In this document: in pieces, positions 6,359 through 22,149 of the stretch
Numbering within the stretch: the stretch's first letter is position 1
Layout of the letters: the number at the start of each line of letters is the position of its first letter
Assembly: GCF_007855645.1 (NCBI RefSeq)
Contig: NZ_CP042261.1
Coordinates: 352,501 to 416,500 of the forward strand
Direction of reading: 5' to 3'
DNA: 64,000 bases
Origin: Qingshengfaniella alkalisoli
GTDB lineage: Bacteria; Pseudomonadota; Alphaproteobacteria; Rhodobacterales; Rhodobacteraceae
Translations under genes and position numbers: made by a program
Notes under the pieces: generated by a model
The model's database searches: none
Told to the model about the DNA's origin: nothing
What the model saw: only the letters and a program-made list of their open reading frames with translations

Positions 6359-6359
<1 letters not shown>

Positions 6360-8101
6360 CAGTGCGAATCCCGTGCGACGGCGTTACCGCGACACCCTTT
6401 GAGGAAGTCGAAATCCGCGCCGGTATCCGCGCCTTCGACATGGTCGTGATACATCTGGGCATAGCCCCCATGTGGACGTTCCACGGGCGGTGTCCAGTCA
6501 GCCAGTCGCGCCCGAAGCTCTTCCTCCGAGATGTCGAGATGTAAGCGCCGGTTCGGTACGTCCAATTCAATCATGTCGCCGGTGCGGACGACCGCCAAGG
6601 GGCCACCGCGCGCGGCTTCAGGTGCCGTGTGCAGAACAACCGTCCCGTACGCGGTGCCTGACATCCGTGCGTCAGAAATACGAACCATGTCGGTGATGCC
6701 CTTTTGCAGAATCTTGGGCGGCAGGCCCATGTTGCCCACCTCGGCCATGCCTGGATACCCGCGCGGCCCGCAATACTTCATAACCATGACACAGTTCTCG
6801 TCGATATCGAGATCCGGGTCGTTAATGCGGGCCTTGTAATCGTCGATGTCTTCGAACACGACGGCGCGGCCCTTGTGCTGGAGCAGATGCTCTGACGCGG
6901 CGGAAGGCTTCAGTACCGCCCCGTCCGGCGCGAGATTGCCGCGCAGAACGGCGATGCCACCCGATTGCGTCAGCGCCTTGTCGACGGGCAGGATGACCTC
7001 CTCGTTCCAGTTGCGGACGTCCTTCACCTCATCCCAGATGCCGCCGCCGGACACGGTGATCGCATCCTTATTCAGATGCCCGGATTCACCCAGATGCTTG
7101 ATAATGACAGGCAGGCCACCGGCATAGAAGAATTCTTCCATCAGGTACTTGCCCGAAGGCATCAGGTTCACGATGGTCGGAATATCGCGTCCCAGTCGAT
7201 CCCAATCATCGAGCGTCAGGTCGATCCCGACTCGCCCCGCAATCGCCAGCAGGTGGACGACCGCGTTGGTGGACCCGCCGATCGCGCCATTGGTCCGAAT
7301 GGCGTTCTCGAAGGCTTCCCTGGTCAGGATGTCGGATGGCTTCAGGTCGTCCTTGACCATGTCCACGATGCGGCGTCCCGACAGATGTGCCATGACGCGG
7401 CGACGGGAATCGACTGCGGGGATCGCCGCATTGCCCGAGAGCGCCATGCCAAGTGCTTCAACCATGCTGGCCATGGTGGATGCAGTGCCCATCGTGTTGC
7501 AGGTGCCGGTCGAGCGGCTCATTGCGGCTTCGGCTTCCACGAAGTCGTCGCTCGACATCTCGCCCGCGCGGACGGCTTCGGAGAATTTCCAAAGATGGGT
7601 GCCGGAGCCAACGCGCTCGCCACGGAACCAACCATTCAGCATTGGTCCGCCGGAGACCATGATCGTCGGCAGGTCACAGGATGCCGCCCCCATAAGCAGT
7701 GACGGCGTGGTCTTGTCGCAGCCCACCAGCAGCACGCAGCCATCGATCGGCTGTCCGCGGATCGTTTCCTCTACCGTAAGGGCGGCGAGGTTGCGGTACA
7801 TCATCGCGGTGGGACGATAGGTGTTTTCGGAGGCGGAGAAGACCGGCACCTCGACCGGGAAGCCACCAGCTTCCCAGATACCCGCTTTGACACGTTCCGC
7901 CAATTCGCGCAGGTGCCCGTTGCATGGTGTCAGATCAGACCATGTGTTCAGGATGCCGATGATCGGGCGACCGTCGAACAGATCATGCGGCCAGCCTTGA
8001 TTTTTTAGCCAGCCACGGTGATAAATCTGGTCCTTGGAAGTACCGTGATACCATTCTTGCGAGCGCAGTTTGCGGGGCCAAGGGGCTGGCTTGAACGTCA
8101 T
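6359..8101 (-). CDS. IlvD/EDD-family aldonate dehydratase, probably L-arabinonate dehydratase
   Basis: A 580-residue [Fe-S] dehydratase that removes water from a sugar acid to give a 2-keto-3-deoxy acid. The cluster ligands are visible as Cys60 (TPCNGH), Cys128 (VGCDKT) and Cys201 (GTCNTMGT), with the following Lys130 matching the carbamylated magnesium-binding lysine; these positions are one residue off those of the characterised Rhizobium L-arabinonate dehydratase, and the length is nearly the same. The pairing with a sugar 1-dehydrogenase supports the oxidative pentose or galactose route. D-xylonate or D-fuconate as substrate cannot be excluded. It is divergent from a FadR-type regulator, which probably controls it. 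Confidence 0.85.
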
Positions 8102-8223
8102 TGTGCAACCTTGTCGTTGATGTCGGGACGCATCGATGGGCCGACCATACTATTCCGGCACTGGCACTGCGTTTGCATATCGTGCACTGATCGGCTCATT
8201 GGCGTGTGTCCTCGTGAAATCTT

Positions 8224-8236
8224 TTTGTCTGACAAA
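8224..8236. promoter_or_regulatory. Candidate operator TTTGTCTGACAAA
   Basis: Perfect 13-bp palindrome (6-bp arms around a central T) in the 260-bp region between the divergent dehydratase and FadR-type regulator genes. Its size and symmetry fit a GntR/FadR-family operator; binding by the adjacent regulator is inference. An 11/13 imperfect copy occurs at 13257-13269, upstream of xylR. Confidence 0.5.
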
Positions 8237-8270
8237 TGAACATCAACCTGTTATGTAGTCCAAAGTCAAT

Positions 8271-8309
8271 CCACGACACATAAAAAGTACGACTTTTTAT
8301 GTGTCGTGG
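8271..8309. promoter_or_regulatory. Perfect 18-bp inverted repeat upstream of the FadR-type regulator
   Basis: Two 18-bp arms (left 8271-8288, starting CCACGACACATAAAAAGT; right 8292-8309) separated by ACG. It lies 53 bases before the regulator's likely start, within its promoter or leader. It could be an operator for a dimeric regulator, a cruciform-forming site, or an RNA hairpin in the leader. There is no T-run after it, which argues against a simple terminator. Confidence 0.6.
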
Positions 8310-8361
8310 TGACACATGCACAGGAGCAGACCGGGTTTTGACGAAAGAAGAAACGACACGC

Positions 8362-9120
8362 ATGACGGTAGGGCGCATTCCCGTTCCTCATTTCGAGACG
8401 CGATCTCCAAGACGCATTCACGGTGAAATTGCTGAATTCCTTGGCTGCCATATCGTCTGCGGAGACTATGCTCCTGGTGATGCATTGCCGGGTGAAGTGT
8501 CCTTTTGTGAAGATGCGGGTGTGTCGCGATCGGCCTATCGGGAGGCTGTCCGCATGGTCGCGGCCAAGGGCCTGATCGTCAGTCGTCCGCGCACCGGAAC
8601 GCGGGTAGCACCGCGCGAAAACTGGAATTTCCTCGACCCGGACATGGTGCGATGGTTCTTCCAGATCGATCCGCCGCCTGACTATTTCATTGAAGGTCTG
8701 TTCGAGTTGCGAGCAATCATGGAGCCTGCCGCGGCTGAGCTGGCGGCGTTGCGGCGCACGGACGCGCATCTGGAAACCTTCGAAGCTGCGCTGAATGGAA
8801 TGAAGCATCACTCCCGCATGTCGCCTGAATGGCGGGAGGCTGATCAAACCTTCCATCGGACCTTGTTGGAGGCGACTGGAAACGACGTGTTGATGAGCCT
8901 TGCTAGCGGTATCTGCGCGGCGGTGAACTGGACCACGGATTACAAATATCGGAATCTGCCGGAGCCGCGTGATCCGGTGGGCGAACACCTCGATGTATAT
9001 GGATGCATTGTGGCGAGGGATGCGGAGGGCGCGCGGGCGATCATGACCAAGCTGGTGCGCTTGGCGTTGGAAGATACCTCGCAGGCATCTGCGTTCAAGT
9101 CTGTGACACGAGACAACTAG
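8362..9120 (+). CDS. FadR/GntR-family transcriptional regulator
   Basis: A 252-residue DNA-binding regulator with an N-terminal winged helix (about residues 12-75; LPGEVSFCEDAGVSRSAYREA is in the recognition region) and a C-terminal FCD ligand domain with conserved histidines (FHRTLLEATGN and GEHLDVYG) that usually bind a metal and a sugar acid or organic acid. ATG 8362 is preferred; a TTG at 8338 with AGGAG 11 bases upstream is an alternative. An ATG at 8299 lies inside the perfect palindrome and is unlikely. Its divergent position beside the dehydratase suggests that it represses the sugar-acid genes. Confidence 0.85.
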   Translation: MTVGRIPVPHFETRSPRRIHGEIAEFLGCHIVCGDYAPGDALPGEVSFCEDAGVSRSAYREAVRMVAAKGLIVSRPRTGTRVAPRENWNFLDPDMVRWFFQIDPPPDYFIEGLFELRAIMEPAAAELAALRRTDAHLETFEAALNGMKHHSRMSPEWREADQTFHRTLLEATGNDVLMSLASGICAAVNWTTDYKYRNLPEPRDPVGEHLDVYGCIVARDAEGARAIMTKLVRLALEDTSQASAFKSVTRDN

Positions 9121-9123
9121 CGG

Positions 9124-9870
9124 ATGCCGGTATTGGACTATTCTGCGGTAGCGGTCGTCGTATTCGCGTTGGCCATGGGCGGTACGCTCAAAGGGGCCAC
9201 GGGAATGGGAGCTCCGCTGATGGCTATCCCGATCATGGCCAGCCAGTTCGACGTCAGGCTGGCGGTCGTCATCATGGTGATCCCAAGTATCGTGACGAAT
9301 GTGGTGCAGCTTTGGCAGTACCGTCGACATCTTCTGCCCGGAGGTTTCTCGCGCCGTTACGCGATTGGGGGTGCGGCAGGTGCCCTTTTGGGAACGGCGT
9401 TGCTGGCCTACTTGCCGGAACGGGCCTTGTCACTTGGACTTGGTACGGCGGTCGTGGCCTACATTGCGCTGCGCCTTTCCCGTCCCGATCTGAAACTGCC
9501 GTTCGAGACAGCGCTGAAATTCAGTGTTCCCGCTGGTGTCAGTGCCGGTGTGCTACAAGGCGCGTCGGGGATATCTGCCCCCGTGTCGGTGACCTATCTG
9601 AATGCGATGCGACTGGATCGTGCGACGTTCGTGGCAAGCGTTTCTGTCATCTTCATGGCCATGGCGTCATTGCAGGTGCCATCACTAATCTGGTTCGGAT
9701 TGCTCGACTGGCATCGCTTCTGGCTCAGTTGTTTCGCAGTTATACCGCTGCTTCTGTTCATGCCGGTCGGGGAAAGGATCGCTCGGCGCATTTCACCAAA
9801 AGTGTTCGACAGGCTGATCCTCGTTGTTCTCGCGCTTCTTGCGGCGCGCCTGATCTGGAGTTCGCTCTAA
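9124..9870 (+). CDS. TSUP (TauE/SafE)-family membrane transporter
   Basis: A 248-residue inner-membrane protein with about eight hydrophobic helices and the two-fold repeat of the TauE/SafE sulfite/organic-anion exporter family (GGTLKGATGMGAPL near the N-terminus, GVLQGASGISAPVSV in the second half). The start lies 4 bases after the regulator's stop, so the two are probably translationally coupled. Substrates of this family include sulfite, sulfoacetate and other organic anions; here export or uptake of a sugar acid or related anion would fit the neighbours, but this is inference. Confidence 0.8.
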   Translation: MPVLDYSAVAVVVFALAMGGTLKGATGMGAPLMAIPIMASQFDVRLAVVIMVIPSIVTNVVQLWQYRRHLLPGGFSRRYAIGGAAGALLGTALLAYLPERALSLGLGTAVVAYIALRLSRPDLKLPFETALKFSVPAGVSAGVLQGASGISAPVSVTYLNAMRLDRATFVASVSVIFMAMASLQVPSLIWFGLLDWHRFWLSCFAVIPLLLFMPVGERIARRISPKVFDRLILVVLALLAARLIWSSL

Positions 9871-9927: not shown

Positions 9928-10680
9928 TTATTCGGCGTTCTCGTGCGGGTGTTTGCCGAGAATGATCATGCTGAGCAGATCATCATCGGTGACATCCTTA
10001 ACATCCACCGTTCCGACAAGCTTGCCGTTCTTCATGACGCTCGCCCTATCGCACAGTTCCATGACGTCGTGAACGTCGTGGCTGATCAGGAAAATGCCGA
10101 TCCCTTCAGCCTTGAGCTGCTTGATCAGTTCCGACACCATCTGCGTCTCGTGTGGACCCAGCGCCGCGGTCGGTTCGTCCATGATCAGGATGCGGGCGTT
10201 GAAGTAAACTGCACGTGCAATCGCGACAGACTGACGCTGACCGCCGGACAAGGCCGAAACCGGTTCCGCAAATTTCCGGAAGTTCGGGTTGAGGCGCGCC
10301 ATGATCTTGCGTGTCTCGGCTTCCATCGCGTCGTCATCGACGAATCCCAACGGTGTTACCAACTCGCGCCCCAGAAACAGGTTCGAGGCCGCATCGAGGT
10401 TATCGGCCAGCGCAAGCGTCTGGTAAATCGTCTCGATGTTGTAGGCGCGTGCGTCGCGCGGGTTGTTGATCGTGGCCTTTTCGCCATCGATATAGATCTC
10501 ACCGCTATCGGCTTTGTAGGCACCTGACAGGATCTTGATAAGCGTGGATTTGCCAGCTCCGTTGTGGCCCAGAAGACCCACGACTTCACCCGGTTTCAGG
10601 TCGACGCTGACATGATCAACGGCGTGCACCCCGCCGAACGAGATGCAAATGTCGCGCATTTCGACAAGTGGCGTGGTCAT
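9928..10680 (-). CDS. xylG: D-xylose ABC transporter ATP-binding protein XylG
   Basis: A 250-residue ATPase of the CUT2 sugar importer class. Walker [10 protein letters not shown] (residues 38-46), signature LSGGQRQS (144-151), Walker B ILIMDEP (164-170) and the switch histidine (LISHDVHD) are intact. It has one nucleotide-binding domain, unlike the about 500-residue tandem XylG of E. coli; the single-domain form is usual in alphaproteobacterial CUT2 systems and would act as a homodimer. The start overlaps the permease stop by 4 bases (ATGA). The xylose assignment comes from XylF and the xylAB/xylR neighbours. Confidence 0.85.
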
Positions 10681-11975
10681 GTTCTTGCTCCCGTCCGCTT
10701 GCGATAGATGATGTCGACCAACACGGCGAGAACGAGCACGGCGCCCACAACGATGTTCTGGAACGGTGCATCAACACCGACCATAGCCATGCCTGACTGC
10801 AATGACTGCATTATCAGTGCGCCGAGGATTGCCCCGTGGATCGTGCCGATCCCACCCGCCAGCGCCGTGCCGCCAATGACGGCCGCGGCGATGACGCGAA
10901 GCTCATCCAGCGTGCCGATGTCGTTGGAGTGGTTTGCCAGACGTGCCGAGGCGACGACCGCAGAGATCGCGCAGAGCGCACCCATGATCGCGAAGATCTT
11001 GACGGTCAGAAGCCGGGTGTTGATGCCGGACAGTTCCGCAGCATCGGGATTGCCACCCGTGGCGAAGATGTAGCGTCCCAGCCGCGTGCGTTTGGCAACC
11101 AACGTCATGACAATGGCAATCGCGATCAGCAGCAGTACCGAAATCGGAATGCCGTAGCCGGTCGTGAAGCCTTCGGGCATGACCTCACCGCGCGCCTCGA
11201 AGAGGCGCTCCAGACGTCGGGAGGGAATGTCATAGGAATTCAAAATCCATACGAAGCCAAGAATCGCAACCGACATGATCGCGGCGAGCAGCCCTTCAGC
11301 CCAAAGTGGCTTGACGGGGAAGTCGTGCGCCTTCTTGTTCCGGCGTGAACTGAACAGGGCTGCGATGGCCGCAAGTGCTAGCACTACGCCTACGACCCAG
11401 GACCATGTTTCACCCAGTGTACCGTTGATGCCACCGAATTTCATGAAGTTCTGATCAAGTGGGCCAATTGTCTGACCGCTCGTCAGGTACCAAGCTACGT
11501 TTCGCCAGACCAGCAAACCTCCGAGCGTCACGATGAAGGCAGGAACCGTCAGATAGCCGATCAGCCAGCCATTGAACGCGCCGATTGCGACACCGACCAA
11601 CACACCAACAACGATTGTCACCGGGGCCGTGATGGGATTGTTCAGGCCAAGACCGAGCATGTTGGGCAGGATGTCGGTTTGCATGACCGCCATGACCGCC
11701 GAGCAGGTGGCCAGAAGCGAACCGACGCTCAGATCGATGTGCCGCGTGACGATGACGAAGACCATCCCGGTCGCCATGATCGCGACGGATACGGTCTGGA
11801 TCGTCAGGTTGAAAATGTTGCGTGCGCTCAGAAAGCGACCATCGGTGAACAGGTTGAATCCGATGCATAGTATGATGAAAGCACCGATCATCCCCAGAAG
11901 TCGCGTGTCGAGTTCCAACACGTCCACAAGATTTTTCTTCTTTTGGGAATGCGGCGCGGAGCTGGTGTCGGTCAT
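10677..11975 (-). CDS. xylH: D-xylose ABC transporter permease XylH
   Basis: A 432-residue CUT2 permease with a basic N-terminal tail ([14 protein letters not shown]) and about ten to twelve hydrophobic helices; segments such as [22 protein letters not shown] are typical of the BPD_transp_2 family. ATG 11975 is chosen because AAGGAC lies 8-9 bases upstream; a TTG at 12002 has no such site and would run into the stem-loop at 12000-12029. It follows xylF by 70 bases and overlaps xylG. Confidence 0.87.
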
Positions 11976-11999
11976 TCCGAAGTCCTTGCCCAGATAAGG

Positions 12000-12029
12000 C
12001 AACTGCCCCGACCGGTATCGGAGCAGTTG
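12000..12029 (-). other. Stem-loop in the xylF-xylH spacer
   Basis: Inverted repeat CAACTGC / GCAGTTG with an inner CCGA / TCGG pair, in the 70-bp gap after xylF. There is no T-run on the minus strand, so it looks less like a full terminator than a 3' protective hairpin that would leave more xylF than xylHG message. Confidence 0.55.
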
Positions 12030-12045
12030 TTTGTTTCAGTTACAT

Positions 12046-13071
12046 TTAGTTGCAGGGTGCAGGGCCGTTTTCGACGCCTTGGCAAAGTGCATCCTGTTCG
12101 ATCCAACCTGCGTCAACGACGGCGGTCAGGTTGTCGGCGGTGACAGGGACCGGCTCAAGAAACTTTGCGGTCAGTGTCGTCCCGGCGGGCGAGGTCCACT
12201 CGGCCGCGCCGTCCACATCGCCCATCGCGGTACCATTGGCCATCGCGACGGCGATTTCACCAGCGGCCTTGCCCAGTTCGCGTGCGTCTTTCCAGACGGA
12301 CACGGTTTGAGTGCCCTGTGCGATACGGTTCAGCGCGGCATGGTCACCGTCCTGACCAGATACCGGGATACCCTGCATGCCTTGTGCAGTCAGCGCGGCA
12401 ACAGCGCCACCCGCGGTGCCGTCATTAGATGCAACCACCGCATCGACATTGTTGTCGTTAGCGGTCAGGATCTGTTCCATGTTGCGCTGCGCGTTCGCAG
12501 GTAGCCAGCCATCGGTGTAAGCTTCGCCGACGATTGTGATAGCGCCGGAATCAATGGCTTCCTGCAGAACTTCCTGCTGACCGCCACGAAGGAAGTCGGC
12601 GTTTGGGTCCGTGGGCGAGCCCTTGATCATGACGTAGTTGCCTTCCGGCGCCTGTTCCAGAACGGCGCGGGCCTGCATGCGGCCAACCTCGACGTTGTCG
12701 AAGGTCAGGTAGAAGGCACGCGGATCTTCGATCAGGCGATCATAGCCGACGACCGGGATTCCTTCATCCGCGGCGGCCTGAACGGCGGGACGAATAGCAT
12801 CGGAATCCTGTGCCAGGATGATAAGCGCGTCAACGCCTTGGGCGATCATGCTTTCGACATCGGAAAGCTGTTTGCTGGAAGAACTTTGCGCGTCGGTCGA
12901 TACATAGGCGGCACCGGCTTCATCCAGCGCGCCCTTGATGGCTGCTTCGTCGGTTTTCCAGCGCTCTTCTTGAAAGTTCGACCAGCTGACGCCAACTGTC
13001 AGGTCCTGCGCAAATGCGGCAGAGGCCGAAACACTTAGCGCGGCAATCGCTACTGTTGTGGTGAGTTTCAT
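12046..13071 (-). CDS. xylF: D-xylose ABC transporter substrate-binding protein XylF
   Basis: A 341-residue periplasmic binding protein of the ribose/xylose (Peripl_BP_4) type. ATG 13071 has GGGAGG about 9 bases upstream and begins a Sec signal peptide with cleavage expected after AFA at residue 21. Sugar-contact regions such as GVSWSNFQEERWKTDE, DSDAIRP, GYDRLIED, NDGTAGGAVAAL and SGQDGD are arranged as in XylF. It is the first gene of the xylFHG unit and is divergent from xylR, so it is probably induced by xylose through release of XylR. Confidence 0.9.
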   Translation of the reverse strand: MKLTTTVAIAALSVSASAAFAQDLTVGVSWSNFQEERWKTDEAAIKGALDEAGAAYVSTDAQSSSSKQLSDVESMIAQGVDALIILAQDSDAIRPAVQAAADEGIPVVGYDRLIEDPRAFYLTFDNVEVGRMQARAVLEQAPEGNYVMIKGSPTDPNADFLRGGQQEVLQEAIDSGAITIVGEAYTDGWLPANAQRNMEQILTANDNNVDAVVASNDGTAGGAVAALTAQGMQGIPVSGQDGDHAALNRIAQGTQTVSVWKDARELGKAAGEIAVAMANGTAMGDVDGAAEWTSPAGTTLTAKFLEPVPVTADNLTAVVDAGWIEQDALCQGVENGPAPCN

Positions 13072-13172
13072 TCCAGTGATCCTCCCGTTGGAACTAAACA
13101 CGATGCGAGCCTAGCAGATTCTGGCGCGCTGCGGCGTTTTAACAGCTTTAAATTTGGAAAAGCAATTAAATA

Positions 13173-13203
13173 AGGCGCTAACCTTCAGGCAGCGCCTCTT
13201 TTT
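13173..13203 (+). terminator. Terminator-like hairpin in the xylF-xylR divergent region
   Basis: Stem AGGCGCT / AGCGCCT with an 11-nt loop, followed on the plus strand by CTTTTT: a standard intrinsic-terminator form. No plus-strand gene ends upstream of it, so it could be an attenuator in the xylR leader or the 3' end of a short untracked RNA. On the minus strand it would sit in the xylF leader. Confidence 0.5.
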
Positions 13204-13311
13204 CCCGCCGCAGAAGTGGTGCTAGATGGGGTCAACCTATTTCCTGGATAAATTGATTTGTCTGAGGAATTATTGTAGACGCATCGCATTGATGTGGCAG
13301 GGGAGGGCTGC

Positions 13312-14517
13312 ATGATCCGAGATCCCAGAGGCCAAGGCCGACGTTTACTACTGTCGCAAATTCGTAAATCCGGCAAGATCGCCCGCGTTGACCTTGCGCG
13401 GAACACGGGGATCAGTCAGGCGACGGTTACGGCGATTACGGCCGAACTGATCCGTGAAGGGCTGATCGAAGAAACCGAGCGCGTGATGGACGGTCGCGAT
13501 GTGCGCCGTGGGCGTCCGAGGGTGGACTTGAAACTACGCGGCGATTCGCATCGCGTGGCGGGGATCAAGGTCGCGGACAGCTCGCTTTCCGTCGTCGTGC
13601 TGGATTTCGAGGGGCGCCTGCTTGCGGAGCATCTCGTTCAGATTGATCGCCGGGCCTATGGAACAGCTGAAATCGTCTCTCAGGTCCAACGCGCACTTTC
13701 CGAGGCCGCGGGTATTGCAGGGTTACGAGCCAGTGACATTTCTGGCGTAGGCATCGGACTGGCCGGGTTTATGGACGCCGACAACGGGATTGCACATTGG
13801 TCACCCAGCCTGACGGATCGCAACGTTCCGTTGCGGGATATCTTGCAGGAAAGCCTGAACATTCCCGTGTTTCTGGACAACGATGTCAATCTTGTCGCCA
13901 TGGCGGAGCTGTATTTCGGGCAAGGGCGCAACATCGATGACTTCATCGTGGTCACCATCGAAAGCGGCGTGGGCGCCGGGATCGTGATCGGCGGACAGCT
14001 TTATCGTGGTGCACGCGGTTATGGGGGTGAGTTCGGCCATGTTAAGGTGCAGTTGGACGGAGCGCTATGTCGATGCGGCCAGCGCGGATGCCTTGAGGCC
14101 TATGTCGCCGATTATGCGCTTTTGCGCGAGGCATCGGTCAGCACACGGTTTGTCGAGACCGAGCAGAACGCGCAACGTATACACAAGTTGATCGACGCGG
14201 CGCGCAACGGAGATGCCACAGCCCGCACCATCATCGAACGTGCGGGGCGGATGTTCGCACTTGGCTTGGCCAACCTGGTCAATATGTTCGACCCCGAACT
14301 GATCATCATGTCGGGCGAGCGGATGCAATTCGACTTCCTGTATGCTGAAGAAGTCATGGACAGCATCGCCGAACAGACCGTGCATTCGGACATGCGCCCG
14401 CCCGAGGTCGTTATCCACAAATGGGGCGATATGATGTGGGCCAAGGGGGCGGCTGCCTTCGCGATTGACGGTGTGGCGGAGCTTGCGATGGAAGGCATGG
14501 ATGGCAATGCGGCCTGA
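13312..14517 (+). CDS. xylR: ROK-family xylose repressor XylR
   Basis: A 401-residue regulator: N-terminal winged helix (about residues 10-65, LARNTGISQATVTAITAELI) followed by a ROK sugar-kinase-like domain with the DNDVNLVAMAE and ESGVGAGIVIGG motifs and the zinc motif CRCGQRGCLEAY. ATG 13312 follows GGGAGG by about 5 bases; a GTG at 13294 is less likely. Position between xylF and the xylAB cluster fits the XylR repressor of xylose genes. The CRTAC1-like gene starts inside its last codons, so both are co-transcribed. Confidence 0.85.
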   Translation: MIRDPRGQGRRLLLSQIRKSGKIARVDLARNTGISQATVTAITAELIREGLIEETERVMDGRDVRRGRPRVDLKLRGDSHRVAGIKVADSSLSVVVLDFEGRLLAEHLVQIDRRAYGTAEIVSQVQRALSEAAGIAGLRASDISGVGIGLAGFMDADNGIAHWSPSLTDRNVPLRDILQESLNIPVFLDNDVNLVAMAELYFGQGRNIDDFIVVTIESGVGAGIVIGGQLYRGARGYGGEFGHVKVQLDGALCRCGQRGCLEAYVADYALLREASVSTRFVETEQNAQRIHKLIDAARNGDATARTIIERAGRMFALGLANLVNMFDPELIIMSGERMQFDFLYAEEVMDSIAEQTVHSDMRPPEVVIHKWGDMMWAKGAAAFAIDGVAELAMEGMDGNAA

Positions 14518-16060
14518 ATTTCTCGTCTTCGCGGTAGCATCGCTTGCGACCGGTGCCACGGCAGATCCGGTCTTCGAACGAAGATCCCAAGGCATATCCC
14601 ACACCTATGCAGGAGGGTGGGAGCATTTCATTGGTGGCGGCGTCGCTGTGTTCGACTGCAACAATGATCGCATGCCCGATCTTTTTGTTGCTGGGGGCGC
14701 GGAGCCTGCGAGGATGTTCATCAACTCCACCGGCGAGATCGGAGCGGAGTTGGCCTTTACAGCGCATCCGTTACCGGATCAGGAATTGGGGGGTGTCACC
14801 GGCGCGTACCCGTTGGATATTGATGGCGACGGGCTCTTGGACCTCGCTGTTCTGCGCGTCGGCGCGAACAAACTGTTGAAAGGTGGACCGGATTGCAGCT
14901 TCTCGGAGTTCACCAATCTGGGATTCCAAAGCGGTGATCGCTGGACGACGGCGTTCTCGGCGACATGGGAACAAGGGCAGGAGCTACCTACCCTCGCATT
15001 CGGAAACTACGTGGATCGCCGTGATCCCAATGGGCCCTTTGAAGTGTGTGACGATAACATGCTCTATCGTCCAGCGGATGGGCTCTATGCAGATGGGCAA
15101 CCTCTGACTCCCGGCTACTGTACCTTGTCGGTTTTGTTCAGCGATTGGGGGCGTCGCGGTCGTGCCGATCTGCGTGTGTCCAATGATCGCCACTACTACG
15201 TGCGCGAGGGGCAGGAACAGATGTGGGCGATGGAAAGCCAGCCAAGGCTTTACACCAAGGAAGACGGTTGGCGTGAATTCAAGCTATGGGGCATGGGCAT
15301 AGCCAGCCGGGATCTGAGCGGCGACGGATTGCCGGAAATCTACCTGACGTCGATGGGAGATCAGAAACTCCAGTCGTTGGAGGTGAGCGCGGCAGGGCCG
15401 TCCTACAAGGACGCAACCTATGAGCGGGGTACCACGGCGCACCGGCCATATTTGGGCGATGACGGACGGCCTTCGACCGGCTGGCATGTCGCGTTCGGCG
15501 ACGTGACCAATGACGGGCGTGACGATATTTTCGTGGCGAAAGGCAATGTCGAGCAGATGCCTTCGAGCGCGATGAAGGATCCAAACAACCTGTTGATCCA
15601 GCAAGCGGATGGACGTTTCGTCGAGGCCGGCGATAGCGCAGGTGTCGCCACGATGGAACGGAGCAGGGGTGGTGCTCTGGTGGATATGAACATGGATGGC
15701 TTGCTGGATCTTGTCGTGGTCAACCGCCGTGCGCCACTGGAAATTTACCAGAACATATCGCAACCGGAGGGGCACTGGCTCGCCGTCGGACTTGAACAGT
15801 CGGGCCACAATAGGAACGCGGTTGGGGCATGGATCGAACTGGATACTGGCGATGCGGTGATCGCGAGAGAAATCACTGTAGGCGGCGGTCATGCCAGTGG
15901 AACGCTGGTGCCGGAACATTTCGGTTTGGGTGATGTCGATACCGTCCGGCTGCGCGTGATCTGGCCTGATGGCGCGGCAAGTGACTGGGAACAATCCGGG
16001 GTCGATCGTGCGGTGCTGGTTGGACGCGACGGTGACGCGATTGTGGTCAGCGACTATTGA
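14501..16060 (+). CDS. CRTAC1-like exported VCBS/FG-GAP repeat protein
   Basis: A 519-residue exported protein (signal peptide of about 22 residues) made of VCBS/FG-GAP beta-propeller repeats. At least five DxDxDG-like calcium-binding loops are seen: DCNNDRMPDL, DIDGDGLLDL, DLSGDGLPEI, DVTNDGRDDI and DMNMDGLLDL. The C-terminal part (HWLAVGLEQSGHNRNAVGAW) matches the ASPIC/UnbV domain of the CRTAC1 family. The start is uncertain between ATG 14501 and 14507; both overlap the end of xylR and share a GGAAGG site. Its 3' end overlaps the convergent MauG-like gene by 7 bases. Function unknown; its place in a xylose locus is notable. Confidence 0.8.
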   Translation: MAMRPEFLVFAVASLATGATADPVFERRSQGISHTYAGGWEHFIGGGVAVFDCNNDRMPDLFVAGGAEPARMFINSTGEIGAELAFTAHPLPDQELGGVTGAYPLDIDGDGLLDLAVLRVGANKLLKGGPDCSFSEFTNLGFQSGDRWTTAFSATWEQGQELPTLAFGNYVDRRDPNGPFEVCDDNMLYRPADGLYADGQPLTPGYCTLSVLFSDWGRRGRADLRVSNDRHYYVREGQEQMWAMESQPRLYTKEDGWREFKLWGMGIASRDLSGDGLPEIYLTSMGDQKLQSLEVSAAGPSYKDATYERGTTAHRPYLGDDGRPSTGWHVAFGDVTNDGRDDIFVAKGNVEQMPSSAMKDPNNLLIQQADGRFVEAGDSAGVATMERSRGGALVDMNMDGLLDLVVVNRRAPLEIYQNISQPEGHWLAVGLEQSGHNRNAVGAWIELDTGDAVIAREITVGGGHASGTLVPEHFGLGDVDTVRLRVIWPDGAASDWEQSGVDRAVLVGRDGDAIVVSDY

Positions 16061-17364
16061 TCAACGGGCAATCCGCTGGGGACGGATTCTGGCACACCTA
16101 GGCGGCCGTCTTCCGCGACAGGGTCAGTCAGGGTTTCCAGAAACGCGATGATCTGATCCAGCTTATCGTTCGGGAGCTTCACCCGCTTCAACTCGTTTGC
16201 TGCTTCGATTGCGGCCATCTCGTCAGGGTCACTGAGAACACGTTCGTCATTCGCGTTGGGCAGACGGGGCAGAGCGGCCTGCGTGATGTCATACTGCTGT
16301 AAGGCAGAAACAGGGTCCAGGTGATGTCGGACCACGGCTTCGAGCGTCGCATATGCCCCGTCATGGCCGTAGGGTGCGGTCATCGTAATGTTGCGCAGCG
16401 GTGGTGTGCGGAATTTGTAGGCGTCTGACGGATCTCCGGTCACCCGCATCCGCCCGATATCCTTGGCGTGGGTTTCGAACCTCTCTGCCTTTCCCGGGCC
16501 GAATTGCGGCATGGCGATGGCATGAAACCGATGGTCAGTCTGGAACTGCCCCGAATGGCAGCCGCTGCATCCGGCCTCGCCGTAAAAGAGCGCCATTCCT
16601 TCGACCGCTTCGGCGGGCAGCGGATCACCACCGCGCAGGAACTGATCAAATGGGCTGTCATCCGCGCGCCACTCGAACGTAATGAAGGCAGCGAGCGCAT
16701 TGGAGATGTCGGTAAAGCGGATCGGAGCATCCGTGCCTATCACCTGATCAAAGCGTTCGCGGTACTCGGGAACATCGTCGACACGGCTTGCGATGATGTC
16801 CCAGGCGCCGCCTTCATGGGTCAGAAAGCCTTGGCGAACCGCTCTTGCCACGTCGTTTTCGGTGTAATGGCCGGCCATCTCATCGGGTGACAGTACGGGA
16901 AACATCGTCTGGGCTGACAGGACGGAATCGAAACCCATGACCATTTCGTCTTCCAGTGGGGTTCGTAAGCCGGACGGACGCGACGCATCCGCCTCCAGCC
17001 GTCCGTCATGGAACATCACGGTGAATTCTGGTGCGCCTATGTTGAACAGCGCTGTCGCATTTCGGGGCACGCGTTGCTCCGGAAGGTTGTCCGGGTCGGC
17101 GCGCCGTTCCGGACCAAGCCCATGCGCGCCGTCACCCAGCCCAAGCGACAATCCGTCCGACGTGCCGAGCGAAGGGTGATGGCATGACGCGCAAGATACC
17201 TCTTTGCTGCCGCTCAAAATCGGGTCGTAAAACAGGAGTTGGCCGAGCTTGATTTCCGCGTCGGAGAATTCGGGGAATACAGCATCCGCTTCAGGCAGTG
17301 CGAGGTCCGACGCAGAAACCGCCGTCCCTCCGAGCAATGCAATCAGGATCGCGATGCGTCCCAT
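16054..17364 (-). CDS. MauG/cytochrome c peroxidase-like di-haem protein
   Basis: A 436-residue periplasmic di-haem protein with a short signal peptide (cleaved near residue 18) and two haem-attachment sites, CASCH (58-62) and CSGCH (266-270). Conserved segments NATALFNIGAP...MFHDGR and FRTPPLRNITMTAPYGHDGAY are typical of the bacterial CcpA/MauG superfamily. Such enzymes reduce hydrogen peroxide or oxidise residues of a partner protein (MauG, MbnH). It reads in the same direction as xylBA, 79 bases downstream, and is convergent with the CRTAC1-like gene, which is a candidate partner. Sequence alone does not decide between peroxidase and protein-modifying activity. Confidence 0.82.
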   Translation of the reverse strand: MGRIAILIALLGGTAVSASDLALPEADAVFPEFSDAEIKLGQLLFYDPILSGSKEVSCASCHHPSLGTSDGLSLGLGDGAHGLGPERRADPDNLPEQRVPRNATALFNIGAPEFTVMFHDGRLEADASRPSGLRTPLEDEMVMGFDSVLSAQTMFPVLSPDEMAGHYTENDVARAVRQGFLTHEGGAWDIIASRVDDVPEYRERFDQVIGTDAPIRFTDISNALAAFITFEWRADDSPFDQFLRGGDPLPAEAVEGMALFYGEAGCSGCHSGQFQTDHRFHAIAMPQFGPGKAERFETHAKDIGRMRVTGDPSDAYKFRTPPLRNITMTAPYGHDGAYATLEAVVRHHLDPVSALQQYDITQAALPRLPNANDERVLSDPDEMAAIEAANELKRVKLPNDKLDQIIAFLETLTDPVAEDGRLGVPESVPSGLPVDQ

Positions 17365-17384
17365 GTCTCCCCCTTGCTTGCAAT

Positions 17385-17404
17385 CCGGGCGGCGTACCGC
17401 CCGG
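17385..17404 (-). other. GC-rich stem-loop downstream of xylA
   Basis: Perfect 8-bp stem CCGGGCGG / CCGCCCGG with a 4-nt loop in the xylA-mauG spacer; a second short hairpin (ACCCGC/GCGGGT) lies just before it at about 17418-17434. No T-run follows on the minus strand, so they may reduce rather than end read-through. Confidence 0.5.
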
Positions 17405-17443
17405 GCTGGCTTATCTTACCCGCATCGAGCGGGTGCGTCGTAA

Positions 17444-18751
17444 TCAGACGAACCGATTGACGTAATTTTCCAGAACTTCCTGGCGTCCCGATTGCGGCTG
17501 CGGGTTGATGTTCTCGGATACAACCCGGTCGAAGATGGCGTCAAGCGAACTGTCCAGCATTGCTTTCGCTTCGGGTTTCTCCCAGCCAGCGTAGCGATCC
17601 TTCAGCGCGTCTTCCAATCCGCCGTCTTCCAGCATCGCGGCAGCAGCTTTCAGGCCGCGAGCGCAGATGTCCATCCCGCCGATGTGGCTGGCGATCAGGT
17701 CTTCTGCGTCGAGCGACTGGCGGCGCAGCTTGGCGTCGAAGTTGGTGCCGCCTTGCGTGAAGCCGCCCGCCTTTAGGACGTGGTAATAAGCCAGCGCAAC
17801 TTCCGGCACGTTGTTCGGGAATTGGTCGGTGTCCCAGCCTGACTGATAATCGTTGCGGTTCATGTCGATGGACCCCAGCACACCCAGCGCGGCGGCGGTG
17901 GCGAGTTCATGCTCGAAGCTGTGACCGGCCAGAATGGCGTGGCCCTGTTCGAGGTTCAGCTTTACCTCGTTTTCCAGCCCGTATTTCTGCAAGAAGCCGT
18001 AGCAGGTCGCAGCGTCGTAGTCATACTGGTGCTTGGACGGTTCTTGCGGCTTGGGTTCGACAAGGATCTGACCCTCGAAGCCGATCTTGTGCTTGTAGTC
18101 CACCACCATGTTCAGGAAACGGCCCATATGGTCCAGCTCCTGTTTCATGTCGGTGTTCAGAAGCGTCTCGTAGCCTTCGCGACCACCCCACAGCACATAG
18201 TTTGCACCGCCCAGCTTCTGGGTCGCGTCCATGCAGGCCTTCACGGTCGCAGCGGAATAGGCGAACACATCGGGGTCGGGGTTTGTGGAGGCACCGGACA
18301 TCCAGCGGCGGTTGGAGAACATGTTCGCCGTGCCCCAAAGCAGCTTCACCTTGCTGCTTTCCATCTTCTGGGCAAAGTAGTCGATGATTGCTTCGAAGTT
18401 CTTCAGGCTCTCGGCGAAGTTGTCACCTTCGGGTCGGATATCCGCGTCATGCCAGCAGTAGAACGGATTGCCGAGGATCTCGAACATCTCGAACGCCACA
18501 TCGGCTTTCAGCTTGGCAAGATCCATATTGTCCTGCGGATACCATGGGCGGTCGAATGTGCGGCCGCCAAATGGGTCGCCACCTTCCCACGCGAAGCTGT
18601 GCCAGTAGGCGACCGCGAAGCGCAGATGGTCCTCCAGCCGCTTGCCCGCTACGACTTCGTCCGGGTTATAGTGATGGAAGGCCATCGGGTTCGTGCTGTC
18701 GGGGCCTTCGTATGTGATGGCGTCGATGCCGTCGAAAAATCCTGTGCTCAT
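17444..18751 (-). CDS. xylA: Xylose isomerase XylA
   Basis: A 435-residue class II xylose isomerase that converts D-xylose to D-xylulose. The active-site region FYCWHDADI holds the catalytic histidine and aspartate; [31 protein letters not shown] and [17 protein letters not shown] carry the metal-binding acids and histidines. Length matches the class II enzymes. The ATG overlaps the xylulokinase stop by 4 bases, so xylB and xylA are co-translated in that order. Confidence 0.97.
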
Positions 18752-20199
18752 TGGATCGCCTTTATTGCAGGGTAGGTTGCGCGGAACTTCTGATAGGCCT
18801 CGTCATAGGCCGCTGTCAGATCCCCGCGCGGCTCGATGGTGCCCGCCACCTTGGGCGCGGTCATCACGGTTTCAGGGGCGGCACCGGTGGCCGCGCAAAT
18901 GGCCAGCCGGACCGCGCCGAGGGCAGCGCCGAATTCGCCTTTCTCGGGCAGATCGACCGGCAGGTTCAGCAACGTGGCCAGCATCTCCACCCAATAGCGG
19001 GATTGGGACCCACCGCCGATTGCCAGTAGGCGGTTTAATTCGGTGCCGGTGGATTTCAGCGCCTCAAGGCTATCGCGCAGCGCAAATCCTACGCCCTCCA
19101 TGACCGCTTGGGTCAGCTCTTTCTGGCCGGTTCCGATGTCCAGCCCGATCAGTGCCCCCCGGATGGCGCTGTCATTATGCGGGGTCCGTTCGCCCGAAAG
19201 ATAGGGCAGGAACCGCACGCTTCCGGGGCCGGAGATCGTGTTGCCCACCATTGCGGACAGATCGGCGGCGCTGTGGTCAAGATTGCGGGACAACCAGTTC
19301 AAACTATCGGTCGCGGCAAGAATAACGCCCATCTGGTACCAAGTGCCGGGAATAGCATGGCAGAAGGTGTGAACTGCAGAGCCCGGCTTGGGCGCGAAAC
19401 TGTCCTTGGCGGCCAGCAGAACGCCTGAGGTGCCAAGTGACACAAACCCATCGCCTTCACGCAGCGTTCCCACACCGCAAGCCGCCACAGCGTTGTCGCC
19501 GCCGCCGCCCGCGATCACCACATCTTCCGACACGCCCCATTCGCGGGCCAGGTCCGGACGAATCCTTCCCGCGACGTCGGATCCCTCGACGAGATCCGGC
19601 ATCTGGTCGCGGCGCATGCCTGATGCCGACAGCAATTCTTCCGACCAGTCGCGCGCGCCGACATCCAGCCAGGATGTGCCTGCGCTGTCGGACATGTCGG
19701 AGATATATTTCCCTGTTAGCCAGTGGCCGAGGTAATCTTTGGGTAGCAGGACTTTCGCGACTCTGGCGAATGTATCCGGTTCGTGTTTTCGGACCCATGC
19801 GAGCTTCGGAGCGGTGAAGCCCGGAAAGACGATATTGCCGGACAGGTCGCGCACGCCGGGGGTTTGGTCCAACTGAGCAGCCTCGACATGGCTGCGCGTA
19901 TCGTTCCACAGGATGCAGGGCCGAAGCACCTGTCCATTTTCATCCAGCAATGTGGCCCCGTGCATGTGGCCCGAAATTGCGATGCCCTTCAGCGCGGCGA
20001 ACTCCGTCGGGTGGTTTGCCTTCAGCTCTGCCGCCGCAGCGCCCAGGGCACGCACCCAGTCGTTCGGATCCTGTTCGCTCCACCCCGAATGGGGATGGTT
20101 GACAGGGTAGGCTTGCTCGGCTGATGCAAGGATATCGCCGTCGACCGTGGCCAGCAGTGCGCGCAGGCCCGAGGTGCCCAAATCCAATCCTAGAAACAT
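18748..20199 (-). CDS. xylB: Xylulokinase XylB
   Basis: A 483-residue FGGY-family kinase that phosphorylates D-xylulose to xylulose 5-phosphate. N-terminal phosphate motif [13 protein letters not shown], substrate motif [11 protein letters not shown], the phosphate-2 region [11 protein letters not shown] and the adenosine region [16 protein letters not shown] are all present. ATG 20199 is preceded by GGAGGAG. A terminator for pgm ends at 20254, so the xylBA unit probably has its own promoter in the roughly 50 bases in between. Confidence 0.95.
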
Positions 20200-20253
20200 G
20201 TCTCCTCCGCTTCGTCGTTGTCCTACATCCGACGTTTTAATTTTCTTGTCAAA

Positions 20254-20286
20254 GTAAAAACGGCGGCGTCCTGGGCAACCGCCGCC
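20254..20286 (-). terminator. Intrinsic terminator of pgm
   Basis: On the minus strand a GGCGGCG / CGCCGCC stem (20280-20286 and 20262-20268) is followed by GTTTTT, 10 bases after the pgm stop. This is a standard Rho-independent terminator. Confidence 0.8.
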
Positions 20287-20296
20287 AATTCTGAGC

Positions 20297-21928
20297 TCAG
20301 GTTGTCACATCCGGCCCGTTTCTGCCGGTGCGTTGCTTAATTCCGGCAATGTCGTCTGCTGCAGCTACGATGTTCGACAGCGCACGGCCCGGCTCCCACG
20401 CCAGTTGATCTTCACGGTGGGTGTAGCTCTCCAGATAGACTCGCAGTGTCGCGCCGACTGTGCCGGTACCGGACAGGCGGAAAACGATTCGGGCACCGTC
20501 GTCGAACATAACACGAATGCCTTGGCCCTCGGCTTCTGACCCATCAACCGGATCAAGGTAGGAAAACTCGTCTGCCTTGGCGACGGTGTGGCCATAGAAG
20601 CTGTGACCTGCAAGATTTGGCAACTGCCTACGCAACCCGTCCATCAGATCGATCGCGTCATCCTTGTCAACGCCTTCGTAGTCGTGACGGGAATAGTAGT
20701 TACGACCATAGGTCTTCCAGTGGTCCGCAAGAATGTCGGCGACGGATTTGCGGGTCTTGGCTAGAATCGTCAGCCACATCAGCACTGCCCAGACGCCGTC
20801 CTTTTCGCGCACGTGGTCGGAGCCGGTGCCAGCGCTTTCCTCGCCGCAAAGTGTTGCGCGTCCTGCATCCAGGAGGTTACCGAAGAACTTCCAACCGGTA
20901 GGTGTCTCGTAACAATCGATCCCGAGCGCCTCGGCCACCCTGTCCAGGGCGCTCGAGGTTGGCATGGAACGTGCAACCCCGCTCAGCCCTTCAGCATAGG
21001 CGGGCGCCAGATGCGCGTTGGCGGCGATCACCGCAAGGCTGTCCGAGGGCGTCACGTATATTCCACGCCCGAGAATCATATTGCGATCACCGTCGCCATC
21101 CGAGGCCGCTGCGAAATCCGGCGCATCGCTGGACATGACCAGATCGACCAGCGGTTTGGCCCAGATCGGATTCGGGTCCGGGTGGCCTTTGCCGAAATCC
21201 GGCAGTGGTGTTGCGTTTATCACGCTGCCCGTCTGCGCCCCCAGCCTGTCTTCGAAAATCGCCTTTGCATACGGGCCGGTGACCGCGTGCATTGCATCGA
21301 AACGCATGGTGAAACCTGTCTTGAACAGGTCATGCAGCGATTTGAAGTCGAATATCTCCTCCATCATGGCGACATAGTCGGCTACAGGATCAACGATCTC
21401 GATCTGCATGCCTGCCAGTTCTGTCATGCCGGTCGACGACAGGTCGATGTCCTGAGTCTCGATGATGTGGTAGGATTCGATTTCCTTCGTGGCGGCGAAG
21501 ATTGCGTCGGTGATCTTCTCGGGCGCAGGCCCGCCATTGGCCGCGTTGAACTTCACGCCGAAATCGTCATCAATTCCGCCAGGGTTATGGCTGGCCGACA
21601 GGATAATTCCGCCATCGGCCTTACGCTGACGGATCAGGTTGGAGGCCGCTGGGGTTGACAGGATCGCGTTCTGGCCAACGATCACCTTGGCTGCACCGGA
21701 TGCCGCTGCCATGCGAAGGATGACTTGTGCTGCACGGTCATTGAAGTAGCGCCCATCCCCCCCCAGAACGAGTGTTTTGCCCTCGACGCCCCCGATCGCG
21801 GTCCAGATGGATGCGACGAAGTTTTCCAGATAGTGCGGTGCCATATAGGTACGGGTTTTGGCGCGCAGACCTGATGTACCTGGTTTCTGACCGTCGATGG
21901 GCGTTGTCTTGATGGTGATCCGTTCCAA
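20297..21928 (-). CDS. pgm: Alpha-D-glucose phosphomutase
   Basis: Phosphoglucomutase interconverting glucose 1- and 6-phosphate, linking glycolysis to glycogen and surface polysaccharide. Key sites: PGTSGLRAKTR near the N-terminus, active-site serine in SASHNPGG, magnesium loop DGDGDRN, and the sugar-binding GEESAGTGSDH. I place the start at TTG 21928: AAGGAG lies 6 bases upstream and this gives 543 residues, the usual length. Upstream in-frame ATGs (as far as 22048) would add up to 40 unusual residues, including an RPMRPM repeat, with no ribosome site. Confidence 0.93.
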   Translation of the reverse strand: MERITIKTTPIDGQKPGTSGLRAKTRTYMAPHYLENFVASIWTAIGGVEGKTLVLGGDGRYFNDRAAQVILRMAAASGAAKVIVGQNAILSTPAASNLIRQRKADGGIILSASHNPGGIDDDFGVKFNAANGGPAPEKITDAIFAATKEIESYHIIETQDIDLSSTGMTELAGMQIEIVDPVADYVAMMEEIFDFKSLHDLFKTGFTMRFDAMHAVTGPYAKAIFEDRLGAQTGSVINATPLPDFGKGHPDPNPIWAKPLVDLVMSSDAPDFAAASDGDGDRNMILGRGIYVTPSDSLAVIAANAHLAPAYAEGLSGVARSMPTSSALDRVAEALGIDCYETPTGWKFFGNLLDAGRATLCGEESAGTGSDHVREKDGVWAVLMWLTILAKTRKSVADILADHWKTYGRNYYSRHDYEGVDKDDAIDLMDGLRRQLPNLAGHSFYGHTVAKADEFSYLDPVDGSEAEGQGIRVMFDDGARIVFRLSGTGTVGATLRVYLESYTHREDQLAWEPGRALSNIVAAADDIAGIKQRTGRNGPDVTT

Positions 21929-22149
21929 ACCTGTCTCCTTGATGGGCTGCCTCATCTGACGCCAACGCATAAGGCTCGCGTCGGTTCGGCACATTGGTCG
22001 CATTGGTCGCATTGGATTACATCTGTGCGACGCGGGCAAGATGAACACCTGAGGTCGGCAAGTTTGGGCCCGCCCCTTGCAGCCCCCTTCATGCGCTACT
22101 AAGACTCTGGCTGATACGGGTTAGGACCAATTTGAGCAGGCAGGTCAAG

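Follow-up and report, generated by a model that had tools for sequence, protein, structure and literature searches.

What might an exported CRTAC1-like protein and a MauG-like di-haem protein be doing inside a xylose locus? The question is raised by a stretch of 64,000 nucleotides from Qingshengfaniella alkalisoli (assembly GCF_007855645.1, contig NZ_CP042261.1, positions 352,501 to 416,500), called the window here and counted from its first letter. The CRTAC1-like gene (14501..16060, plus strand, ATG at 14501) begins within the frame of a ROK-family regulator, XylR by context (13312..14517, plus strand; domain and NCBIfam searches), and overlaps the end of that frame at 14517 by 17 bases. It converges with the gene of the MauG-like di-haem c-type protein (16054..17364, minus strand), which has xylBA upstream and shares 7 bases with it (16054-16060). 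Both proteins carry at the N-terminus what was judged by eye to be a Sec-like signal peptide. A first-pass annotation had described such an exported, convergent and overlapping pair, and the coordinates confirm its description.

CRTAC1 proteins range from bacteria to mammals, and we know of no biochemical function for them. The answer that we favour, tentatively, is an oxidative module in the periplasm that belongs to the xylose regulon, is controlled by XylR and consists of a CRTAC core and a peroxide-handling partner. It builds on co-occurrence, gene order, partner exclusivity, predicted common regulation in the window, export signals and conservation, of which the evidence on the exchange of partner types and on the operator is new in this analysis. 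Gene order, predicted regulation and partner swapping tie the CRTAC1-like protein to a defined sugar pathway of marine bacteria that can be cultured, and the conserved exported pair points to an overlooked oxidation step outside the inner membrane in many of them. A literature search, with most subscription journals outside its reach, returned no account of a CRTAC/MauG-like pair in a xylose context; within the same limits, the accessible text of PMC12758564 alone joined "CRTAC1 family protein" with bacteria.

Association of the pair with xylose genes

One genome per genus, covering 198 genera of the window's family, was searched with each protein. The CRTAC1-like protein was found in 102 genomes, xylA in 124 and a MauG-like protein (E <= 1e-30) in 120. 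Eighty of the MauG-like matches were called xyl-type, meaning at least 480 bits, a line drawn once the scores were known, with 487 as the nearest score above and 469 below. Cross-counts used the best MauG-like match from 94 of the 120 genomes, the 80 xyl-type ones among them. CRTAC is present in 78 of the 80 xyl-type genomes, and the two that lack it (G123 and G146) have broken or incomplete assemblies, 83% and 73% complete, the contig of the former stopping just past ROK. Likewise, xylA is present in 97 of the 102 CRTAC genomes (absent in 5) vs 27 of the 96 without CRTAC. The co-occurrence of the pair with xylA thus extends well beyond one genome, and these family-wide counts rule out chance neighbours.

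The arrangement of the genes is also conserved. CRTAC and the MauG-like gene lie no more than 3 kb apart in 69 of the 102 CRTAC genomes (68 convergent, 1 tandem), and CRTAC and xylA no more than 15 kb apart in 63. Where ROK and CRTAC are in tandem, the end of the former overlaps the start of the latter in 65 of 74 cases. In 7 of the 78 genomes with both, the two genes are not within 20 kb on one contig and both are nevertheless retained. Two main gene orders were seen among 120 mapped loci. In one, xylA, xylB, xylG, xylH and xylF share a strand, ROK and CRTAC occupy the other, and the MauG-like gene faces CRTAC; in the other, which is that of the window, the MauG-like gene comes last in a xylB-xylA operon. 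Loci from named genomes include those of Ruegeria pomeroyi, Phaeobacter, Shimia, Thalassococcus and Yoonia. The MauG-like gene is within the locus piece in 76 of these named loci, which are the best 80 of 577 relatives and therefore lean to MauG-type loci. For R. pomeroyi, an arrayed mutant library exists according to the available part of PMC10130141, which also reports from mutants of strain DSS-3 that its xylFGH (SPO0861-0863) serves glucose and xylose. From the gene order of another R. pomeroyi strain (L244), the CRTAC and MauG-like genes would be expected next to these importer genes.

Several variants of the locus were noted in passing. An aldose 1-epimerase-like gene (by eye) occurs in 16 loci, L069, L081, L099, L101, L107 and L111 among them, and in 15 of the 16 it lies within 300 bases of the MauG-like gene. 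In L067 (G008) and L072 (G017), a CRTAC-like gene precedes genes for a short-chain dehydrogenase (by eye) and ROK, with no partner gene nearby; these genomes have no xylA match, which suggests an oxidative (Weimberg-type) xylose route. The CRTAC gene of L069 (G013) gives two matches in tandem, perhaps through a frameshift or an assembly error.

Exchange of partners and predicted XylR control

Twenty-four CRTAC genomes of the family have no xyl-type MauG. Fourteen of them have a vanadium-haloperoxidase homologue, encoded in tandem directly upstream of CRTAC, two have a DHOR-type protein, and eight belong to neither group. The best PDB match of one such homologue is 4cit (E 9.9e-64, residues 50-436); a PAP2 domain was found in all three homologues checked, and one has a Tat-like signal (TAT_signal, 21.4 bits, slightly below the cut-off). 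All 14 keep the Lys, Arg, Ser-Gly-His, Arg and His that we take to be the vanadate and acid-base residues of vanadium haloperoxidase. Searching the 198 genomes for the haloperoxidase gave 17 matches, 16 strong and one weak (G002). Of the strong matches 14 are in CRTAC genomes and two at contig ends; in one of the latter, G154 (locus L287), the order xylF-xylH-xylG-xylB-xylA-haloperoxidase runs into a truncated CRTAC. All 16 of these genomes have xylA, and none combines the haloperoxidase with a xyl-type MauG (hypergeometric 3e-11).

The DHOR-type partners of G083 and G119 are two-CXXCH proteins encoded directly upstream of CRTAC, 58% identical to each other, that of G119 matching DHOR. Pfam DHOR (PF06537) scored 26.6, 35.8 and 30.2 bits in three proteins against a gathering score of 22, through their C-terminal part only. 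Of the remaining eight genomes, G019, G027 and G165 reach a contig edge, and G008, G017, G042, G057 and G168 have no partner in the stretch read. A survey of 337 genomes of the class gave 14 CRTAC matches, comprising the window genome, four others of its family and nine outside it. Outside the family, DHOR is directly upstream of CRTAC in G198, G530 and G506, and by coordinates also in G544 and G539; it is present yet unlinked to CRTAC in G443 and G267. In G389 a MauG-like gene (715 bits) is on a different contig from CRTAC, and G485 and G392 have only a weaker di-haem cytochrome c peroxidase (CCP) relative elsewhere in the genome. Three enzymes, which represent two or more unrelated folds and families that either use peroxide or are named for it, replace one another beside CRTAC, and we read this as peroxide chemistry performed for or on CRTAC. 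The propeller protein looks like a fixed core and its peroxide-type partner like an exchangeable part.

The importer genes near CRTAC also vary. By eye, CRTAC stands beside LIV-type importers in G443, G485 and G392, with no partner in the stretch read, and LIV-type ABC importers replace xylFGH beside the CRTAC-like genes of L277, L280 and L281, from other families of the class.

A palindrome derived from the xylF-ROK intergenic stretches, TTTAATTTGAnnnTCAAATTAAA, is the candidate XylR operator. Of 81 xylF-ROK intergenic stretches, 80 have a site that scores above the 99th percentile of a background of 782 stretches upstream of other genes; this count is partly circular, since the matrix was trained on the best 65 of them. 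In a non-circular scan of 135 whole loci, sites of at least 12 bits were found just upstream of xylB in 22 (21 at 14-46 bases, one at 69). The 64-kb window has two sites of this strength only, at 13148 and 20236. The first (13148..13170, no strand, 19.2 bits) lies between xylF and ROK-CRTAC, where xylFHG diverges from the ROK gene. On the minus strand here are xylF (periplasmic xylose-binding protein, 12046..13101) and, named by context from a domain search, xylH (10677..12002) and xylG (9928..10680), for the permease and ATPase of the xylose ABC importer. The second site (20236..20258, no strand, 23.9 bits) heads xylB-xylA-MauG, 37 bases upstream of xylB (xylulokinase, 18748..20199, minus strand), which is followed by xylA (xylose isomerase, 17444..18751, minus strand) upstream of the MauG-like gene. 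The products of xylF, xylA and xylB pass their NCBIfam equivalog cut-offs.

A predicted XylR site thus heads both the operon with CRTAC and that with the MauG-like gene. For the window, this agrees with the suggestion of the first-pass annotation that both are xylose-controlled. General co-control is not favoured: a XylR site within 300 bases upstream of the MauG-like gene itself was found in just 2 of 86 cases (7 of the 86 being paralogues), so that such a site was dropped as a general feature, and the 11 haloperoxidase-CRTAC pieces away from the xyl genes have none. XylR control of the MauG-like gene is therefore clear only where it ends the xylBA operon.

Properties of the di-haem protein and the propeller

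The MauG-like protein has a CCP_MauG domain and, in its AlphaFold2 model (predicted local distance difference test score, pLDDT, 89.5), a CCP_MauG fold with two CXXCH haem sites, C58-C61-H62 and C266-C269-H270, invariant in 79 of 79 proteins. MauG chains are its top fold matches, followed closely by bacterial cytochrome c peroxidases (bCCPs) and the copper-linked MauG-like 6e1c. It falls below the cut-offs of MauG (TIGR03791, 118.4 of 443.85 bits), MbnH (TIGR04039, 129.8 of 362.85), hydrazine synthase gamma (NF052341, 24.9 of 625) and its best NCBIfam match, His-Xaa-Ser-associated MauG-like (TIGR03981, 274.7 of 340). TIGR03791, for MauG proper, was above cut-off in none of the 198 family genomes; the lone match at E < 1e-90, L291 (313 bits, below cut-off), served for register. 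In the multiple alignment H348 corresponds to Tyr282 of L291 and H119 to its Trp110, and phmmer range ends put Tyr282 at MauG chain position 294.

On this register, 78 of 79 proteins have His where MauG has Tyr294 (the other has Met), and at the inter-haem Trp position 71 of 79 have His and none has Trp. His in 78 of 79 also takes the place of the Met ligand on the high-potential haem of canonical bCCPs. Q152 and E162, aligned with Q120 and E130 of L291, are kept in 79 of 79, at positions which we take to be those of the distal Gln and Glu, the catalytic residues of bCCP. Classical MauG membership was rejected on score, on the axial His and on the His that replaces the inter-haem Trp. With H348 in the place of Tyr294, a bis-His low-spin haem is predicted. 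As described in the available part of PMC6405878, MauG Y294H and BthA Y463H lose the near-infrared feature of the bis-Fe(IV) state, and H2O2 reduction is retained by BthA Y463H. With His at both positions, MauG-style Trp oxidation is possible and not favoured. These residues, and the replaceability of the partner, speak against the first-pass proposal that the di-haem enzyme oxidises Trp/Tyr of the propeller in the manner of MauG/MbnH, while modification of the propeller by its partner is kept as a live rival, albeit one to which we give rather little credence.

Two sets of paralogues of the MauG-like protein were also seen. L172-L176 (50-53% identity, below the 480-bit line) have the same His/His pattern and come from five genomes without CRTAC, in differing neighbourhoods with trmFO- and gluQ/gltX-like genes (by eye). 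A second paralogue, at 46-47%, lies near TRAP-type transporter genes (by eye) in L177 and L178, and that of L178 has Met at the axial position.

The AlphaFold2 model of the CRTAC1-like protein (97 sequences, pLDDT 94.9) is a 7-bladed FG-GAP propeller with an ASPIC/UnbV domain; with FG-GAP_3 and UnbV_ASPIC both found, it belongs to the CRTAC1 / ASPIC-UnbV family. It resembles mouse CRTAC1 (9etn) in its whole fold (Z 37.9, root-mean-square deviation 2.7, 443 residues, nearly full length), at 17-19% identity. Conservation was read from an alignment of 107 CRTAC proteins of all partner classes, leaving out three short proteins of the 102 in the family and the 121-residue fragment of L287; alignment A1 leaves out 5 of the 102. 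Four Cys are invariant across the 107, and W148, Y170, R225, N228, D229, R230, Y232, M265, M285, W328, K347, N349, M353, R389, R409, H464 and H473 are kept in at least 105. Judged from blade topology, most of the conserved propeller residues probably lie at the strand starts and inter-strand loops of one face. This Trp/Asn/Asp/Arg/Lys-rich site would suit a sugar, and three Met from neighbouring blades, together with the less strictly conserved H329, could bind a metal. Mouse CRTAC1 differs here, with Arg and Tyr at the positions of M265 and M285.

Proposed mechanism, rival explanations and known systems

In the favoured mechanism, the CRTAC1-like propeller would be the working core, binding or transforming a sugar or sugar-derived compound near the XylFGH importer by means of its strongly conserved site, presumably on one propeller face. 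We infer that the propeller is an enzyme, most likely an oxidative one, and that peroxide is the currency it shares with its partner. The di-haem protein would be a dedicated peroxide-handling partner, a peroxidase that either activates the redox centre of the propeller or consumes H2O2 formed beside it, and a vanadium haloperoxidase or DHOR-type di-haem protein could give equal service. A precedent is found in the available part of PMC9770985, in which a secreted fungal copper-radical oxidase is paired with a tandem peroxidase, with electron paramagnetic resonance support for activation, and the tandem peroxidases are never found with other copper-radical oxidases. This fungal Perox-AlcOx system is an oxidase-peroxidase gene pair; it differs in its proteins and in its substrates, which are plant-cuticle alcohols. 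Should xylose or a relative be what the pair acts on, a periplasmic redox step is missing from the usual view of how these bacteria import pentoses. A bolder version, which we consider doubtful, would make the bacterial CRTAC1-like propeller the first of a new class of peroxidase-dependent periplasmic sugar oxidoreductases, with a redox centre that must be woken or protected by a dedicated yet exchangeable peroxide enzyme (di-haem CCP, vanadium haloperoxidase or DHOR); if true, xylose users would have an unrecognised oxidative step before uptake, and the CRTAC1 family would gain its first function.

Several observations weigh against this mechanism. To our knowledge, no catalytic activity or metal has been reported for these proteins. 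The geometry of the conserved site comes from blade topology and not from coordinates. The resemblance of the propeller to a sugar-acting enzyme, aldos-2-ulose dehydratase (4a7k, Z 28.3), one of its closest fold matches, counts in favour of the mechanism, yet the identity is 10%, the receptor-type propeller LGI1 ties with it (Z about 29), and a fold shared with 4a7k shows no function. Across 57 genomes with all five genes, the distance correlation of CRTAC with MauG (r 0.63) is not above that of CRTAC with ROK (0.68), so no special co-evolution of the two is seen and interaction is not implied. Eleven of the 14 haloperoxidase-CRTAC pairs stand away from the xyl cluster within pieces of 5.9-19.9 kb, and a XylR site was found in none of these 11 pieces. 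None of the three partner types was found, at the cut-offs used, in G042, G168, G404 and G561. Lastly, 27 of the 124 xylA genomes have no CRTAC, so the module is common yet dispensable for the isomerase route.

The partner may instead act on the propeller itself, oxidising CRTAC residues and so giving it a cofactor or a metal site. MauG acts in this way on methylamine dehydrogenase, and CorB/SACCP has been proposed to do so on CorA/MopE; we hold such maturation of CRTAC to be possible though not probable. In its favour, CRTAC accompanies the xyl-type MauG (78 of 80) and the strong haloperoxidase (14 of 16, plus the CRTAC fragment of G154), and W263-G-M265, M285, W328-H329 and M353 on blades 5 and 6 might form a Met/His/Trp metal site. 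The best residue hint is W40, kept in 95 of 96 CRTAC proteins with a partner in the locus vs 3 of 9 without. As a strict mark of a modified residue it is weakened by Phe at this position in one of the two DHOR-partnered family proteins and in G267 (DHOR elsewhere), and by Trp in the partnerless G168; G443, among the nine without a locus partner, has DHOR elsewhere. Maturation is further opposed by the His at the Tyr294 and inter-haem Trp positions, and we know of no haloperoxidase that installs a protein cofactor. With MauG/pre-methylamine dehydrogenase the pair shares the CCP_MauG domain, two c-type haem motifs, MauG as top fold match and a partner gene nearby; it differs in these His residues, in score (TIGR03791, 118 vs 444), in having a propeller as partner and in the absence of a mau gene among the genes assigned at 9928-22048 of the window. 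Also comparable, and in favour of maturation, are the copper proteins CorA/MopE, secreted and co-encoded with adjoining di-haem CCP/MauG relatives (available part of PMC3912023), and the copper enzyme methanethiol oxidase (SBP56), exported and encoded beside SCO1 and a di-haem CCP/MauG relative, also in R. pomeroyi (available part of PMC5739008). CorA/MopE are other partner proteins in a system that is copper-repressed, not sugar-controlled; methanethiol oxidase is of another family, and no SCO1 gene is among those assigned at 9928-22048. If the partner does modify the propeller, this would be a protein-derived cofactor system of a new kind, with one job done by unrelated enzymes.

The two proteins could also be separate passengers of the regulon, CRTAC binding sugar or wall and the di-haem protein serving as an ordinary periplasmic peroxidase against respiratory H2O2 on xylose. 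The invariant Gln152 and Glu162 at the bCCP catalytic places, the lack of excess co-evolution and the XylR-headed operons of both genes in the window agree with this. Dependence on CRTAC (78 of 80), retention with it even where the genes are unlinked (7 genomes) and replacement beside it by another peroxide-type enzyme are not what one would expect of a general peroxidase, and we judge the passenger explanation unlikely. Quite improbable, in our view, is an electron-transfer complex similar to hydrazine synthase, with a bis-His di-haem subunit on the propeller and a small molecule other than H2O2. In the available part of PMC12758564, hydrazine synthase gamma is described as CCP-like; its haem is bis-His and its Trp position is taken by His, two features that the MauG-like protein is predicted to share. 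The same source places a di-haem CCP-like protein beside a "CRTAC1 family protein" in hydrazine synthase homologue clusters of clades I-III, with ABC binding proteins also in clade III. These homologues differ in having alpha and fused beta-gamma subunits, and the text seen mentions no sugar genes. The score of just 24.9 of 625 bits with NF052341 hydrazine_gamma also stands against such a complex, and a swap for a haem-free vanadium enzyme does not fit it.

The xylose cluster of the window is bordered by genes, named by eye, for an IlvD/Edd-like dehydratase (6359-8101), a GntR-type regulator (8299-9120) and a TauE-like permease (9124-9870). Together the genes at 6359-9870 look like a second sugar-acid locus.

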